The notes below the pieces were generated by a model. The model did not search any database. It worked only from the letters and a program-made list of their open reading frames with translations, and was not told the origin of the DNA. From positions 1 to 22,854 of the IMG/VR virus record IMGVR_UViG_3300025645_000488: DNA of 22,854 nucleotides, one strand, 5' to 3'. This document shows positions 2 to 22,854 of the stretch, one piece after another; position 1 is the first letter of the stretch; the number at the start of each line of letters is the position of its first letter. The stretch is from a virus. A program made the position numbers and the translations under genes.

Positions 2-895
2 AACACTAAGCTACGTGATGCTGTGTCGCAGTACATCCGTAGTGCTAACTTCGCTAAGCTATCTAGTGCAGTACAGTATAAGTATGAGAGTACACTTAAC
101 CGTGTGTGTGCTACCAAGGTACAGAACGGTGCTGAGTTAGGTAACATCAAGCTAAGCGACATCAGGTACAAACATGTGACGTATGCCTACGATAGGTGGA
201 CTGATAACAATGGCCCATCTGCTGCTAACTACATGGCTACATGCCTGAGCATCGTACTTAACACAGCCATACGTCACGAGGCTATCATAGCTAACCCTGT
301 GTCACAGCTACAGCGTAAGTCAGAGAAGCCTCGCAAAGTTAAGTGGTCCAAGGATGACGTTAGGTCTTTCCTTTCTACGGCATACTCTGAGTGGCGCTGG
401 CGTAGCATAGGATTGATACTACACATGGCATACGAGTGGGGTCAACGCATAGGTGACATGCGCCTACTCAAGTGGGAGGACATTGACTTCGATGAGCAAC
501 GTGTTGACATCACACAGTCTAAGCGTGGCGCTGAGGTACACCTACCTATACCAGATGAATTGCTAGCTATGCTTGAGGCACAGCGTGTAGACTTTGGCTT
601 CCAAGATTATGTAGCACCACGGGTTAAGCCTAACCACAGTGGGTACAGCCCTTACACTGCCATTGAGATCCACACTCAGGTCAACAACATCAAAGCTAAG
701 GCTGGCCTTGACCCTAAGCTACAAGCCAGAGACCTACGCCGTACTGCTATCACTGAGATGGCTGAGGCAGGGGTGGATCTTGTAGGTATCATGCAGGTGA
801 GTGGACACCAGAGTCCCAACAGTGTTAAGCCTTACCTGGTTAACACATTCAGTGGTGCATCAGCTGCACTATCAAAGAGAAGGGGAGACGGATGA
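2..895 (+). CDS. int: Tyrosine-family site-specific integrase, 5'-partial
   Basis: Catalyses strand exchange between phage and host attachment sites through a covalent phosphotyrosine. The reading frame is open to the first base of the window, so the true start probably lies upstream; the first in-window start-like codon is GTG at 23, and residue numbers here count from it. Residues about 1-100 fit the SAM-like core-binding domain. The catalytic domain carries R142 (GQRIGDMRLLKW), K167 (TQSKRG), R239 in ARDLRRT, H262 in SGHQSPNS and nucleophile Y271. The usual His before DLR is Arg (R236), a variant also met in other phage integrases. The set looks functional. The stop overlaps the next start (ATGA). 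No attachment site, excisionase or repressor is visible nearby, so a temperate lifestyle is possible but not shown. Confidence 0.93.
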   Translation, partial: NTKLRDAVSQYIRSANFAKLSSAVQYKYESTLNRVCATKVQNGAELGNIKLSDIRYKHVTYAYDRWTDNNGPSAANYMATCLSIVLNTAIRHEAIIANPVSQLQRKSEKPRKVKWSKDDVRSFLSTAYSEWRWRSIGLILHMAYEWGQRIGDMRLLKWEDIDFDEQRVDITQSKRGAEVHLPIPDELLAMLEAQRVDFGFQDYVAPRVKPNHSGYSPYTAIEIHTQVNNIKAKAGLDPKLQARDLRRTAITEMAEAGVDLVGIMQVSGHQSPNSVKPYLVNTFSGASAALSKRRGDG

Positions 896-1461
896 CAATT
901 AGGTTTCTAATACCAGAGAGCAGTCCTGAGTACCCTTCTTTAGGTTACTGTACGGAGAAAAAGTATAGAATAATACTAGACAAGATGGATACTAACTATG
1001 TATTGCAGAGCTTTAGAAGTCCTAAATGGAGGAATCTTAAATACTTTGGTAGCTATGAAAGCCTTACCACATTCCTATACAAAAAAGCCTATGAGTTTGA
1101 GGTAATACATACCTACTATTATGAGAAGTATAATACAATAGAGGAGTACTATTGGTGGCGTATACCAAACCATACTAGACTTAAGAAGGCCACTCCTGCT
1201 TTCTTACGAGGTAATGACAAAGAAATAAAACGAATTAATGGCATATATAGACTGAGAGATATAATGATACGTTACACAGGTATACCCTATCATGTAGATC
1301 ATATGTGGCCTATAGCGGATGGTGGCCCCCACTGGAGTGGTAACTTACAGATACTAACTGCAACAGATAACATAAGAAAACACGCTAAGGTGTGTCAAGT
1401 TATTAAAAGTGAGATAGGACGAATGTTAGAGGAAGAAAGGCTTAGTTATGAACATACGTGA
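892..1461 (+). CDS. HNH endonuclease, AT-rich insertion
   Basis: Protein of 189 residues. The C-terminal part (about residues 130-165) holds a clear HNH nuclease core: YHVDHMWPIADGG, then H-x3-GNLQIL and N-x2-K. The VDH motif supplies the metal and general-base residues. The first 120 residues are rich in Tyr, Lys and Ile and are not recognised; they may be a DNA-binding part. Shine-Dalgarno AGGGGAG precedes ATG 892, which overlaps the integrase stop; the 3' end overlaps the primase start by 14 bases. Base composition is clearly more AT-rich than on either side (for example 1081-1140 is roughly a quarter GC), which suggests recent acquisition as a free-standing homing-type nuclease. No intron or intein is visible beside it. 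The nuclease class is seen; the homing role is inferred. Confidence 0.85.
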   Translation: MTIRFLIPESSPEYPSLGYCTEKKYRIILDKMDTNYVLQSFRSPKWRNLKYFGSYESLTTFLYKKAYEFEVIHTYYYEKYNTIEEYYWWRIPNHTRLKKATPAFLRGNDKEIKRINGIYRLRDIMIRYTGIPYHVDHMWPIADGGPHWSGNLQILTATDNIRKHAKVCQVIKSEIGRMLEEERLSYEHT

Positions 1462-5652: not shown

Positions 5653-7704
5653 ATGATGAGAACAGTATTAGATGTAGAGAACAACACTACTAAGCGAGAG
5701 GGTAAGACCTTGCTTGACCCTTGGGAGCCAGGTAACTTCTTAGTGCAAGTGGGTACTCTCAATGTAGACAAGATTGACGAAGAGCATATACTTACCTTCG
5801 ATCACAAGGAGAGGAAGGACACAGGTGGTGGTGCTGCGTTTGTACTACAGGCTGTACTGGATGAGACTTCTCTTTTGATTGTACACAATGCACGGCATGA
5901 CTTACCTTGGCTATGGGAGTCAGGCTTTACCTATGACGGTGAGGTGTATGACACTATGATAGGTGAGTACCTACTGCTGCGTGGTACAAAGCGTGGTATA
6001 GGCTTAGGGTATTGCGCTGAGGTGCGTGACCTACCGTCCCGTAAGACTGACGTACTAAAGGAGTACTATAAGAAAGGATACAACACAGATGAGATACCCC
6101 TCGCTGAACTACGAGACTACCTAAAGTGTGACTTAAATGTCACACGTGAGTTGTTCCTTGCACAAGAGGAAGACTACTCTAAGCCTGAGAGTCAGTCGAT
6201 GCTAAAGGTACGAGACATAAGCATGAAGGTTGCAGTTACCCTGTGTAAGATGTACCAGCGTGGCTTCAAGGTGGATCGTGCTGCACTGGATGAGGTACGT
6301 AAAGAGTTTGAGGATGAGAAGGTGCAGCTAGAGACACGCCTTAACATGCACGTGCGTAAGCTTATGGGTGACACGCCTATCAATATCAACTCATCCGAGC
6401 AGATGTCCAACGTGATCTATAGTAAGAAGCCTAAGTCTAAGAAGGAATGGGTAGAGCTATTCGATCACGTCAACAACAAGGATGAGTACAAGTCTACCGT
6501 AGCAGCTAACACAGATCGTATATTCAAGACGCAAGCCTATACGTGTGAGACTTGCGAGGGTACAGGTAAGACGTATCGCATCAAGAAGGATGGCACTAAG
6601 TATGCAAGGCCTAACAAGTGTAAGGACTGTGAAGCTAGAGGGTATCGCTTGAAGCAGCTGAACCAAGTGGCAGGGCTTAACTTCTCTGCGCCCAACAAGG
6701 ATTGGGTCAGTTCTAGTGGGTTCTCTACATCAAAGGGTAACCTGGAGATACTGATTGCTACGGCTAAGAGTAAGGGTATGTATGATGCGATAGAGTTTCT
6801 TACTGATTATCGTAGGCACAATGCTGTGGGTAGCTACCTGTCTAACTTCGTAGAGGGTATTGATTTGTACACTAAGCCTGACGGTAGGCTACACGTTGAC
6901 CTATCCCAGACTACTACAGCAACAGGCCGCTTCTCTGGGCGTAACCCTAACATGCAGAACATGCCACGAGGTAACACCTTCCCAGTTAAGAAAGTGTTTG
7001 TGTCTCGTTGGGAGGGTGGCTACGTTATGGAGGCTGACTTTGCCCAGCTTGAGTTTAGAACTGCTGCGTTCTTAGCACAGGATGAGGTAGCTATGCAGGA
7101 GATTGACGATGGCGTAGACGTACACGCTTACACTGCTCAGGTTATCACTGATGCGGGTGAGCCTACTACCAGGCAGGAAGCAAAGGAACACACGTTTGCA
7201 CCCCTCTTCGGGGCTACAGGTTATGGTAGAAGTACAGCTGTCAAGGCTTACTACGAGCACTTCACTGAGAAGTATAAGGGAGTAGCTAAGTGGCATAAGA
7301 AACTAGGTAAGGAAGCAATTACCCTACTAAAGATTACTAACGTAAGCGGTAGGCAGTATGCATTCCCTGACGTACACCGCAGAGAGAATGGCAGCATAAG
7401 CCACATGACTAGCATCAAGAACTACCCAGTGCAGGGCTTCGCTACAGGTGATGTAGTACCCGTGGTACTGATGGAGTTGGAGGAGAGGCTCAAGCCTTTA
7501 CAGTCGTGCTTGGTTAATACTGTACATGACTCTGCTGTTATAGATATACACCCAAAGGAGAAGGACTATGTGATTGCTATCATACACAGTATGAACGAAG
7601 ACCTAACTCGTATCATAGCTGAGGCCTATGATGTTGAGATGAATGTACCACTATTATTAGAAGCTAAGATCGGGCCGAATTGGCTTGACACAGTGGATGT
7701 ATAG
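5653..7704 (+). CDS. polA: Family A DNA polymerase with DnaJ-type zinc insertion
   Basis: Phage replicative polymerase, 683 residues from ATG 5653; ATG 5656 is better spaced from GGAG and may be the real start. Proofreading exonuclease motifs are intact: Exo I LDVEN (D7, E9), Exo II HNARHDLPWL (D83), Exo III YLKCDLNVT (D160). Polymerase motifs: A, EADFAQLEFR (D462); B, R507-x3-K511-x3-F515 then FGATGYG; C, NTVHDSAVID (D626). Motif C reads HDS instead of the usual HDE, but the metal-binding Asp is present. F515 aligns with Klenow F762. Between exonuclease and polymerase lies an insertion with two CxxCxxxG knuckles (C298/C301 and C323/C326) like half of a DnaJ zinc domain, the trait reported for phage HMO-2011. 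A promoter for the next gene lies in its last codons. Confidence 0.96.
   Translation: MMRTVLDVENNTTKREGKTLLDPWEPGNFLVQVGTLNVDKIDEEHILTFDHKERKDTGGGAAFVLQAVLDETSLLIVHNARHDLPWLWESGFTYDGEVYDTMIGEYLLLRGTKRGIGLGYCAEVRDLPSRKTDVLKEYYKKGYNTDEIPLAELRDYLKCDLNVTRELFLAQEEDYSKPESQSMLKVRDISMKVAVTLCKMYQRGFKVDRAALDEVRKEFEDEKVQLETRLNMHVRKLMGDTPININSSEQMSNVIYSKKPKSKKEWVELFDHVNNKDEYKSTVAANTDRIFKTQAYTCETCEGTGKTYRIKKDGTKYARPNKCKDCEARGYRLKQLNQVAGLNFSAPNKDWVSSSGFSTSKGNLEILIATAKSKGMYDAIEFLTDYRRHNAVGSYLSNFVEGIDLYTKPDGRLHVDLSQTTTATGRFSGRNPNMQNMPRGNTFPVKKVFVSRWEGGYVMEADFAQLEFRTAAFLAQDEVAMQEIDDGVDVHAYTAQVITDAGEPTTRQEAKEHTFAPLFGATGYGRSTAVKAYYEHFTEKYKGVAKWHKKLGKEAITLLKITNVSGRQYAFPDVHRRENGSISHMTSIKNYPVQGFATGDVVPVVLMELEERLKPLQSCLVNTVHDSAVIDIHPKEKDYVIAIIHSMNEDLTRIIAEAYDVEMNVPLLLEAKIGPNWLDTVDV
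6544..6648 (+). other. DnaJ-like zinc-finger module inside polA
   Basis: Codes for CETCEGTGKTY, a basic spacer of about 20 residues, then CKDCEARGY. Two CxxCxGxG-type knuckles are the repeat unit of the DnaJ/Hsp40 cysteine-rich domain; here one pair rather than two is present, enough for one zinc ion. It sits where T7 polymerase has its thumb and thioredoxin-binding region, so a processivity or partner-docking role is a reasonable inference. Confidence 0.8.
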
Positions 7705-20099: not shown

Positions 20100-20663
20100 T
20101 TAACCCCTTGCCATCAAGCCACGTGGTGCTTCCTCAACGGGAGCTTCCATCATAGGCATTTCTTCTGTGTCTTGTTCTTCTTCTTCTTGAGGCTCAGCCA
20201 TCATAGTCTCTACTTGGCGCATAAACTCTTCACCAGTATCTTCTGACTCTGGGTCCAGAGCGTCTAGCTTCTTACGTAGCATTGCAAGAACTAGCTTGTC
20301 TTCTTTCTCTTTATCTTCAAACTCAGAAGGCTCATCACCTGTCTTGTAGTCTAGCCCAGCTTCCTCAGCGATAGAAACTAACTCCTCAAACACTACATCA
20401 CCAATGATTAAGCTTACATCTACAGAGTGGATACCCTCCATCTGCGCTGTAGTTAATGCTGTTTTAGCTAATGCCCGTAGAGGGACACCCATCTGGATAA
20501 GCTCTAGGATGTTGTCGAGGGACTCAGGGGAGCTTAACCCGTCCATGTGAAACTTGATAGCCTCACGTGGGTCAGAGATCTCAGCTGGGCGTTCCCAAGG
20601 GTAGTTCTTAGGAGTATCCGTAAGGGATTGACCTGCTATAGGAGCGTTTAATAATTCAGACAT
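20100..20663 (-). CDS. Virion-associated acidic protein, unknown function
   Basis: 187 residues. N-terminal half: APIAGQSLTDTPKNYPWERP, then DPREAIKFHMDGLS, QMGVPLRALAKTALT, MEGIHSVDVSLIIG. The C-terminal half is acidic, with a Glu-rich run followed by PVEEAPRGLMARG. The pattern GQSLT-x6-PWERP through DVSLII and a final RGLMARG is one I recall from proteins next to the internal virion genes of marine podoviruses, without known function. The charged, largely disordered C-terminus would suit a scaffold or packing role in the capsid core, which is speculation. Start overlaps the stop of the upstream gene (TAATG on the minus strand). Confidence 0.75.
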   Translation of the reverse strand: MSELLNAPIAGQSLTDTPKNYPWERPAEISDPREAIKFHMDGLSSPESLDNILELIQMGVPLRALAKTALTTAQMEGIHSVDVSLIIGDVVFEELVSIAEEAGLDYKTGDEPSEFEDKEKEDKLVLAMLRKKLDALDPESEDTGEEFMRQVETMMAEPQEEEEQDTEEMPMMEAPVEEAPRGLMARG

Positions 20664-21550
20664 TAACCGTTACCTTCCATTAAGGAGTCTCTAAGTCCTC
20701 GTAGTAGAGCCTTCACTTCGTCAATACCGTACTTAGCAGCATTACCGCTATCGTAGTATGACGCTCCAGCTTTCTTATTACCCTTAGCTAGATCATAGGG
20801 TAGAGGCATTGAGGCAAACTCTCTAGCCAAACCATACATGGCATCCTCAATACTAGAGTCTCCTCCAGTCAAGTAATCCCAAGTCTTTCTAGTATTAGCT
20901 TTACCTGTAAATAAATACTCGCCTAGCTGTGTTTGAGTAGCCTCATCAAATACAGCATCATCTGAAATGCCCAGCGCCTTTTGTGCTTCGAGTAGAGTAT
21001 CAGGTATCATTTGAAACTTACCTACAGCAAACAGGCGGTCTGGGTTATTAGGGTCATTTATAGCTTGATACTGTTTAATCTCTGCTAAGGTCATATCAGA
21101 TAGCTTCTTACCACCACGCTCTGCAACCTTAGTGCTACCTATGATTTCATCGTTGATAGTGCCACGGTTGGCTGCGTCTAAGCTACCACCGTAACTCTCA
21201 CCACCGCTAATAAAAGACATAAGAGTAGCTAAGCTTGTCACATCTTTAGTAGGTGCAAAGTAAGTAGCCCCTGTAAGCTCAGACAGTTCACCACGCTGGG
21301 CTTGTGAATCCATAGCGTCTACTCGTGCATCAATGTCTTCAGCTTGGTAGGCATCAAACGTCATAGGTGTACGCTCTTCACGTATAGTACCAAGGTAGTC
21401 ACTAATGTACTGCTGTATATCGTAGTCCTCAGGGCCAGCGTCAATGACCTTACGAGACATGATACCACTAGCACTCTTACTAAGCCCACCTATACTGGGC
21501 ATCTCTGTAGCTTGTGCTACGATCTTATCTGCTAAGCTAATCTCTGCCAT
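20663..21550 (-). CDS. Lytic transglycosylase-like internal virion protein
   Basis: 295 residues. The segment from about 105 to 215 has the shape of a lysozyme-fold peptidoglycan hydrolase: FISGGESYGG with the probable catalytic Glu E118, then D-x-ANRG, LSDMTLAEI, FAVGKFQMIPDTLLEA (174-189), ALGI and FDEATQTQLGEYLF. A further GLAREFASMPL (240-250) is common in phage virion hydrolases. It probably opens the cell wall during DNA injection, the job of the N-terminal domain of T7 gp16. The first 100 residues are helical and not recognised. It is not a free endolysin by context, as it sits among virion genes. Purine-rich AAGAAAGAAAAG precedes its ATG. Confidence 0.75.
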   Translation of the reverse strand: MAEISLADKIVAQATEMPSIGGLSKSASGIMSRKVIDAGPEDYDIQQYISDYLGTIREERTPMTFDAYQAEDIDARVDAMDSQAQRGELSELTGATYFAPTKDVTSLATLMSFISGGESYGGSLDAANRGTINDEIIGSTKVAERGGKKLSDMTLAEIKQYQAINDPNNPDRLFAVGKFQMIPDTLLEAQKALGISDDAVFDEATQTQLGEYLFTGKANTRKTWDYLTGGDSSIEDAMYGLAREFASMPLPYDLAKGNKKAGASYYDSGNAAKYGIDEVKALLRGLRDSLMEGNG

Positions 21551-21566: not shown

Positions 21567-22854
21567 TTAATTTAGTATAATGCCTTTACCAGCAGAGGCA
21601 CTCATGTAGTTCAATCCACCCTTAAGAAGAGTAGCAAATAAACCGCCTGCTCCTTGAGCGTCTGCATACGCAGCTTGAGCATCAGCTTTTAACTCTGCTA
21701 CAAGAACAGTAGCTATACGATCCGCTGCGCTCTCACCAGACGCATAAGCAAAGCTCATAACGTCACGCTCCTTCTGCCAGTAGGCGTCCAGGTTAGTAGC
21801 TGTCAGTGCATTAATAGTCTTAGCGAAGTTCATATTGCTTTCGTTCTGTGCAGCTTGGTTAGCTGTAGATAAAGTCTGACGCCACTGAGCATTCGATTGA
21901 GCAATGAGTAGTCCGTTCTGTGCGTTAAACAAGTCACGCTGTTGCTGGATCTCAGAGTTAAACTCACGCAGTGCATTCACAGAGTTAATGTTGAATTGAT
22001 CCATAGCGTTCTGCTGTGAGGCGTTGAACTGTGATGTCTGACTACGTAGGTTAGCGAAGTACTGATCTGTTTGGTTCTGGCTTGTGGCGTTGAACTGTGC
22101 AGCTGCGTTCTCTGCAGCCTGGTCAGTAAACAACGCTTGAATGTTCTGCTGTGACTTAAAGATAGCAGTCTGTTGATCGTTAGCCAGGTTAGTCATGTCC
22201 ATCTGCAAGAAGCTCTGAGCGTTCTGTACTGCAGCCTGTTGACGATTGTTAAGGTTAGCCATATCTAAGTTAGACAGAGCAGCAGCCTCAGCCATCACCA
22301 TAGCTTGACGATTAGACAGGTTGTTTAGGTTAACCGTATTAGCTGCACGTGCATTCTCAAGAGCAATGTTCTGCTCAGCAGAGAAGTTCATGTTAGCGAT
22401 GTCACCAATACGTGCTGAGTTCTGTACTCGTGCTTGGAACGCTTGGTCAAACTCCATACCTAGGAAGGTAGCACGTTGTTGTGCAGAGAGCATAGCACGT
22501 TGCTGACGGTTTGTCAAGTTCTGGGATTCAAACTGAGCCTGTACTTGAGCGTCCATCTGAGCGATAGGTAGTGCAGCTTCCATTGTAGCTTGAATGACAG
22601 CCTGACCAGCTAAGCTAGACGCACCCAAGCCACGAGCAGAGAGTGTAGCCATAGCTGTACGCATAGAGCCTGCAGCCCATGCAGGTGTATTACCACCCTC
22701 GAACTGCTGCATTAGTCCTTCTAGTTGTCCCTGTACAGTAGCCTGTGCGCTGGGCGTTGCAGTTTTAGCTTGGACTTGCTCAGTGAAGGCAGCAGCACTA
22801 GCAGCATTAGCTACAGGATCAATGAGTTCCCCTGTTTGTGGTTCTCTAGGGGCA
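21567..22854 (-). CDS. Ala/Gln/Asn-rich coiled-coil virion protein, 5'-partial
   Basis: The frame is open to the window end, so the N-terminus is missing; 381 residues follow the first in-window Met (22712) and at least 47 more codons precede it. Residue numbers count from that Met. Almost no charged core; very rich in Ala, Gln and Asn. Residues 65-180 repeat every 22 residues (NLTNRQ, NLSNRQ, NLNNRQ, NLANDQ at 65, 131, 153, 175), and residues 206-293 repeat every 11 residues with QFN-like starts. Such hendecads form long straight helical bundles. The C-terminus (AYASGESAADRIATVLVAEL) is a mixed helix. First of the ejection-type genes in order, so the place of T7 gp14, though far longer. Function inferred from context. 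Confidence 0.7.
   Translation of the reverse strand, partial: APREPQTGELIDPVANAASAAAFTEQVQAKTATPSAQATVQGQLEGLMQQFEGGNTPAWAAGSMRTAMATLSARGLGASSLAGQAVIQATMEAALPIAQMDAQVQAQFESQNLTNRQQRAMLSAQQRATFLGMEFDQAFQARVQNSARIGDIANMNFSAEQNIALENARAANTVNLNNLSNRQAMVMAEAAALSNLDMANLNNRQQAAVQNAQSFLQMDMTNLANDQQTAIFKSQQNIQALFTDQAAENAAAQFNATSQNQTDQYFANLRSQTSQFNASQQNAMDQFNINSVNALREFNSEIQQQRDLFNAQNGLLIAQSNAQWRQTLSTANQAAQNESNMNFAKTINALTATNLDAYWQKERDVMSFAYASGESAADRIATVLVAELKADAQAAYADAQGAGGLFATLLKGGLNYMSASAGKGIILN
21834..22520 (-). repeat. 22- and 11-residue protein repeats (hendecads)
   Basis: Protein-level repeat inside the Ala/Gln/Asn-rich virion protein. The first part (22173-22520) has a 22-residue period marked by NL-x-NRQ; the second part (21834-22097) has eight consecutive 11-residue units, for example QFNATSQNQTD, QFNASQQNAMD, QFNINSVNALR, EFNSEIQQQRD, LFNAQNGLLIA. 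The DNA itself is diverged, so this is an old, selected periodicity and not recent duplication. Confidence 0.85.

Follow-up and report, generated by a model that had tools for sequence, protein, structure and literature searches.

Three turns of an alpha helix, which rises by 1.5 Å per residue, take up 11 residues. In fibres, the stalk can vary freely in length while its register is kept, and a Peptidase_S74 chaperone is typical of those that are trimeric. For short-tailed phages of the kind treated here, T7, P22 and similar models supply the picture of how the envelope is bridged. Some tape-measure proteins of long-tailed phages contain 11-residue repeats with W or F markers in variable number, as described by Belcaid et al. 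(2011; PMC3271669). In the tube formed by the H protein of phiX174, according to the description in PMC7354561, three hendecads are followed by 11 heptads, and the lumen is largely lined by amide and guanidinium groups. Here we describe a phage protein in which an array of 22- and 11-residue repeats is lengthened or shortened, from one relative to the next, almost only by whole 11-residue units between two conserved anchors.

The window analysed, a stretch of 22,854 bases from IMG/VR virus record IMGVR_UViG_3300025645_000488, contains the repeat gene (gene A) on its minus strand. The gene starts outside the window and runs off the right-hand end, with 428 C-terminal residues inside (Table 1). 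In a tblastn search, Roseobacter phage CRP-2 (79.8% identity over 90% of the 428 residues) and Puniceispirillum phage HMO-2011 (63.0% over 90%) were among the closest named phages. The sequence similarity extends across the anchors and the array, which places the protein in the family of HMO-2011 phage1322_25 and CRP-2 gp49, and the DNA polymerase in the window indicates the same group, the HMO-2011-type phages, which are described as dominant and widespread in the sea (PMC9038755). The complete gene A product has 965 residues in a 96%-identical contig (L004), 706 in HMO-2011 and 1014 in CRP-2, and it is annotated as hypothetical in both named phages. No Pfam or PHROG match to the window protein was found at E 0.001. 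A search of titles and abstract openings, in mainly open-access literature, returned no publication on the array protein, which does not by itself prove its absence in print; similarly, no virion proteome of a relative was recognised in the CHOED and Cobavirus proteomics and Zobellviridae cryo-EM literature, again mainly open-access. In record MW202701 (L096, 7369-9960), a homolog of the array protein is annotated as 'huntingtin', presumably from its composition.

Table 1. Positions of gene A, its parts and its neighbours within the window
Feature	Position	Strand	Remarks
Gene A, C-terminal 428 aa, open ORF	21567..22853	-	Ortholog of HMO-2011 phage1322_25 and CRP-2 gp49
N anchor domain, residues 37-104	22542..22745	-	Non-repeat, conserved (ATV.GQLE..., ARGLGASS..., ALPIAQ)
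Pro of ALPIAQ, residue 96	22566-22568	-	
22-residue repeat array, about residues 97-247	22113..22565	-	Residues 104-247 tested
11-residue repeat array, residues 248-335	21849..22112	-	Eight units with F-N marker
C anchor Trp codon, residue 324	21882..21884	-	NAQWRQ
Conserved C-terminal part, residues 324-380	21714..21884	-	
Neighbour B, endolysin-like protein	20663..21550	-	PHROG 90, E 1.8e-10; between gene A and gene C
Neighbour C, 187-aa protein	20100..20663	-	
Neighbour D, 782 aa	17747..20095	-	Candidate ejection-cassette protein, by place and size
Neighbour E, 1197 aa	14153..17746	-	Candidate ejection-cassette protein, by place and size

The first-pass annotation had reported regular 22- and 11-residue repeats at 21834-22520, which corresponds to residues 112-340 of the 428-aa ORF, and both periods proved to lie above all shuffles. 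In residues 104-345, BLOSUM62 autocorrelation compared with 300 shuffles was highest at lag 22 (z 8.8), followed by lags 44 (z 4.7), 33 (4.5) and 11 (3.7). The protein was then divided at residue 247. Residues 104-247 gave 29/122 identities at lag 22, a value matched by 0/10,000 shuffles, and 17/133 at lag 11, which was not significant (1,675/10,000 shuffles were as high); residues 248-335 gave 20/77 identities at lag 11, again matched by 0/10,000 shuffles. As lag 11 is not significant in the former part, the description of 22-residue units followed by 11-residue units is right. The eight 11-residue units that begin at residue 248 also have, as had been noticed, an aromatic or small residue in a fixed place, namely F or Y in the first six, S in the seventh and A in the eighth, and 6/8 aromatics of residues 248-335 share one register (0/20,000 shuffles). 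The motif NL-x-NRQ, put forward as the mark of the 22-residue units, is recognizable at four sites (residues 112, 178, 200 and 222) in the wider form NL-x-N-[RD]-Q, but it is absent from some of these units. The shift of phase that had been claimed between the two parts was not found: the Asn of these four sites and the Asn of the F-N marker (residue 255) all fall at 2 mod 11, and because the Asn of both unit types is in one class, a single hendecad register runs through the whole array.

The rule of array length across relatives is new here. We measured the array with profile anchors, from the Pro of ALPIAQ, which precedes it, to a Trp close to its end, that of NAQWRQ; in the window protein this distance is 228 residues, or 8 mod 11. 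The same remainder was found in 105/105 proteins of a first set, at distances of 118, 151, 162, 173, 184, 217, 228, 316, 338, 426 and 536 residues, where the value 338 comes from L096, a single protein with a weak C anchor. Both L096 and L014, the latter cut by a contig end, were dropped from later counts, and both fit the rule (338 and 228). For an out-of-sample test, both anchor profiles were rebuilt from the 103 remaining first-set proteins, frozen and applied to newly fetched relatives. Both anchors were found in a single frame at 215 of the 240 new loci, and the other 25 were left uncounted (anchor missing or no common frame); the distance was 8 mod 11 in 214/215 proteins, and in 188/189 of those that keep both the Pro and the Trp. 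The sole off-rule array, that of L127, has 317 residues compared with 316 in its relatives, and the extra residue is either a sequencing error or real. Lengths first met in the new loci were 239, 250, 448, 558, 646, 668 and 778; the value 338 was borne out by 42 loci.

Over all relatives measured, the span between the anchors thus runs from 118 to 778 residues, and 18/19 distinct array lengths share a class mod 11. In the same proteins, by way of control, the lengths of the N part (153 distinct) and of the tail (42 distinct) are spread over all 11 classes. Beyond the array, the first Trp is separated from the next anchor position (YWQKERD) by 35 residues in 104/105 and 215/215 homologs, the one exception being the truncated L014. 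The total of 318 homologs overstates the statistical weight through relatedness, as it corresponds to 59 clusters at 70% identity within length classes; furthermore, several contigs were fetched twice (for example, L171 = L189), and L085 and L088 represent one phage. Some family contigs (L107-L116) lie in assemblies labelled Rhodobiaceae, Maricaulis, Flavobacteriaceae, Winogradskyella, Sphingobacteriales, Campylobacteraceae and uncultured Alphaproteobacteria, labels that reflect faulty binning or else a broader range of hosts.

A fairer count than raw homolog numbers comes from a tree built on the anchor pieces; thinning at 80% identity had reduced its 317 rows to 84, and about 44 residues of each row are the array's own end, contained in the C piece. 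This tree requires at least 33 changes among 19 length classes, and parsimony with random resolution leaves a single one that departs from multiples of 11. The step is exactly 110 residues in a mean of 13.0 of the 33 changes and a multiple of 110 in 17.8; multiples of 110 thus make up 54% of changes, whereas 100 label shuffles gave 32% on average and 43% at most. Identity at lag 110 is 0.50 in the 778-residue array (n=1) and 0.46 in the 668 class (n=5), while at lags 88 and 132 it is about 0.24-0.27 in these same longest classes; in shorter classes (316, 338 and 426), lag 110 is not prominent. Since this identity is prominent in the longest members, blocks of five 22-residue units have been duplicated there.

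Several lines of evidence bear on the structure of the array. In 318 arrays, 79,927 residues include 0 Pro and 1,061 Gly (about 1.3%); in contrast, the upstream parts of the first-set proteins have 3,376 Pro in 55,706 residues. The composition is rich in A, Q, N and L, with V, I and T together at about 11%, and the mean helix-propensity cost is 0.388, compared with 0.412 for the phiX174 H coil. AlphaFold2, run with 33 sequences, predicted helices at residues 80-152, 160-236 and 248-401, broken at 153-159 and 237-247, with coil in the rest and no strand. The confidence of this model is low (mean pLDDT 56, pTM 0.22), with ten-residue blocks from 261 to 400 averaging 57-83 and the remainder 39-58. 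A long helical array of hendecad type is supported, at the level of such models, as the best structural reading. The outcomes that the first-pass annotation had named as contrary to its view, a lack of any 11-residue peak or of long helices, were not seen in the 428 residues.

The hendecad helical bundle that had been proposed agrees with the absence of Pro, the H-like helix propensity and the predicted helices, but the hydrophobicity of the 22-residue part lacks the 3.67-residue harmonic expected of a simple hendecad coiled coil. There, this harmonic takes up 4% of the hydropathy variance, compared with 31% at 2.75 and 24% at 2.2 residues; in the 11-residue part its share of the hydropathy is 9%, and only the bulky residues show it (34%). 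Hydrophobicity power above 3 was found at period 2.75 in 21/22 homologs, at 2.2 in 22/22 and at 3.67 in 2/22, and a conserved Asn recurs every 11 residues. By our own reading of the hendecad wheel of the 22-residue units, hydrophobic positions lie on two sides, with a Gln/Ser face and a charged face, a modelled pattern that would suit a sheet or barrel of laterally packed helices. A two-faced helix of this sort could account for the 2.2 component but does not explain the one at 2.75.

With regard to the phiX174 H protein, the likeness consists of hendecads in a long helix, an amide-rich composition and a similar helix propensity. However, H has three hendecads followed by 11 heptads, as against 20 hendecads here, and it is the DNA-pilot protein of a microvirus, whereas the present protein belongs to a dsDNA tailed phage; the role in DNA delivery is a feature of H. 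A single BLASTP comparison with H gave a best E of 1.1, and the profile of the array protein had no hit in the PDB at E up to 10.

The neighbourhood of gene A also bears on its function. A homolog of gene C lies downstream of it in 239/243 loci (those with at least 2,200 bases after gene A), and complete ORFs homologous to B were found in 15 loci, as against 78 for gene C. In annotated phages, proteins of the size of D and E come after gene C, and complete sequence homologs were found in only 10 loci for D and only 35 for E. This place between tail genes and large downstream proteins, as we infer it, together with the short tails, resembles that of the T7 and P22 ejection proteins; unlike those, A, C, D and E had no credible profile match to solved structures in the PDB. 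Neither did A, C, D and E of the window match a known ejection protein in Pfam and PHROGs, nor did members of the C and E alignments in PHROGs. The fold model of E (mean pLDDT 52) gave a best E of 0.11 against the PDB, with no phage ejection protein among the best 50 of 127 rows. As matches to ejection proteins were not obtained for C, D and E, their assignment to a putative ejection set follows from place and size. Of eight homologs of gene A scanned, one, that of CRP-3, matched PHROG 6121, which carries the label 'virion structural protein' (E 3.6e-13). We count this match, along with the steady presence of gene C, the adjacent endolysin-like gene and the LysM domain noted below, in favour of a virion or ejection setting. 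On the other side, only 41/103 proteins have a hydrophobic tail, defined by a KD mean over 17 residues of at least 1.0, and the window protein reaches 0.88.

Taken together, these observations lead us to favour, tentatively and somewhat short of an even chance, the view that gene A, which adjoins a putative ejection cassette, encodes a probable virion protein in which the array serves as a helical spacer of quantised length; the protein may be delivered along with the DNA. There is strong reason to regard the array as one alpha helix, unbroken or nearly so, with three turns to every 11 residues, and moderate reason to regard the gene A product as a virion protein of the ejection set. From known helix geometry, three turns per 11-residue unit would keep the next packing face in place, and the whole-unit rule would follow: a whole hendecad could be inserted without rotating the packing face beyond it, while any other insertion or deletion would break the packing of neighbouring helices. 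Several copies may associate by their helical faces, with Gln, Asn and Ser on one side and charges opposite, into a bundle or barrel, which would leave the virion with the DNA and serve as a spacer or as part of a conduit. Gene A itself would lie after the tail genes and before the downstream genes C, D and E, a set that is kept in place.

What the length itself does is a further matter. The roles first suggested for the array, a trans-envelope tube or a rod in the core, may be kept as suggestions, but a straight single-purpose tube fits poorly with 118 to 778 residues, which as one helix would measure about 18 to 117 nm at 1.5 Å per residue. It fits poorly, too, with phages of one host strain: on FZCC0040, the array has 14 units in CRP-3, CRP-212 and CRP-235 and 19 in CRP-207. 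Because the length is too variable for a straight tube that spans the envelope and phages of one strain differ, the helix may fold back, perhaps where the model is broken (153-159 and 237-247), or its length may tune something else. A simple ruler of host-envelope thickness was rejected on the same 14 versus 19 units and on the Pelagibacter phages, which have 14 units on strain HTCC1062 and 28 on strain HTCC7211. The 11-residue step looks like a built-in length unit, and on a further, rather unlikely reading the array would be a genetically adjustable helical ruler, altered by whole hendecads (1.65 nm) and repeatedly by blocks of ten (16.5 nm), that tunes the reach of a DNA-delivery conduit or internal core; the assembled bundle would then accept a step only if every helix kept its face.

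We prefer the reading in which the protein is delivered with the DNA and acts as a spacer or conduit part. Its strongest rival, although a rather unlikely one, is an external or tail-tip fibre with a homotrimeric coiled-coil stalk that varies in hendecads and is matured by S74 in some phages. Peptidase_S74 is indeed present at the C-terminus of 4/10 homologs scanned (L095, L100, L101 and L102, those of CRP-3, CRP-235, CRP-738 and CRP-212), and these four distant, CRP-3-like homologs thereby resemble S74-chaperoned trimeric fibres; the domain was, however, not found in the window protein or in the other 6/10 of this first scan, and 36/36 full-length relatives had no Pfam or PHROG match at 0.001, hence 0/36 with S74. 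Genes annotated as tail fibres lie slightly upstream in HMO-2011, a stalk would be free to vary in length with its register kept, and the bulky residues of the 11-residue part do carry the coiled-coil harmonic. Yet gene A is tied to gene C in nearly every locus counted above, and its long N-terminal region is the most variable while the C-terminal tail is short (56-172 residues), which is the opposite of the usual tail fibre. We consider it quite improbable that the array acts in the manner of a tape measure and sets the length of a tubular part, be it an internal core or an extensible nozzle; we know of no tube of matching length. In favour of such a ruler, steps of exactly 110 residues recur on the tree and multiples of 110 exceed the shuffled maximum, but recombination between existing 110-residue blocks could explain them without any measuring. 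The likeness to tape-measure proteins rests on the repeat features described in PMC3271669, compared by description: an 11-residue unit, an aromatic at a set position (F or Y in six of the final eight units of the present array) and variation by whole units. The differences are that the related cultured phages are short-tailed here and that the array consists mostly of 22-residue units, with 110-residue units in the longest, and is flanked by anchor domains of its own. The short tails described in PMC6918029 for seven RCA phages, relatives included, speak against membership among the tape-measure proteins. By analogy, the comparison suggests that the whole-unit repeat logic of tail tape-measure proteins is also present in phages without long tails.

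Two further explanations concern the repeats themselves. A beta-solenoid (curli-like or other) or another beta stack, built of 11-residue strands or 22-residue coils, would be in keeping with the power at 2.75 and 2.2 residues, its scarcity at 3.67 and the Asn conserved every 11 residues. Against it stand the A/Q/N/L-rich composition with little V, I and T and the strand-free AlphaFold2 model, and because the array has no Pro and little Gly and its model is helical, we rejected this fold as a first choice and consider it very unlikely. It is extremely improbable that the regularity is a mere by-product of tandem duplication under no structural constraint. Duplication of units would by itself keep the register, and the lag-110 identity of 0.50 in the longest member does record block duplication; but the 33 or more changes include a single off-register one, though the 22-residue units are only 20-30% identical within arrays (nine length classes examined), and the flank lengths span all residues mod 11.

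The preferred helical spacer, with its single register, makes a simple prediction: a deletion of one unit should be tolerated and a deletion of one residue should not. The relatives offer ready-made variants, with 10 to 70 units; CHOED gp13, for example, has 15, and cultured relatives include CRP-2, grown on FZCC0023, and Pseudoalteromonas phage Slicky01. The 33 or more changes of array length, all but one of them multiples of 11, amount to a natural experiment in which the length of a phage part is varied.

Some minor features of the window and its relatives may also be recorded. LysM is present near the N-terminus of 1/10 homologs scanned, that of CRP-235, which also bears S74. Within ORF D, a low-complexity stretch contains tandem PAGET units (PAGETPAGETPAGETPAGETPAGEPP). 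The DNA polymerase (5653-7704, +) has an inserted CxxCxGxG zinc-finger-like stretch, and the annotation of the HMO-2011 polymerase assigns PF00684 to the matching feature. At the left-hand end of the window, an ORF at 2-895 (+) resembles, by eye, a tyrosine recombinase/integrase, and the ORF at 892-1461 (+) has an HNH-like motif (HVDHMWPIADGGPH...), also by eye.
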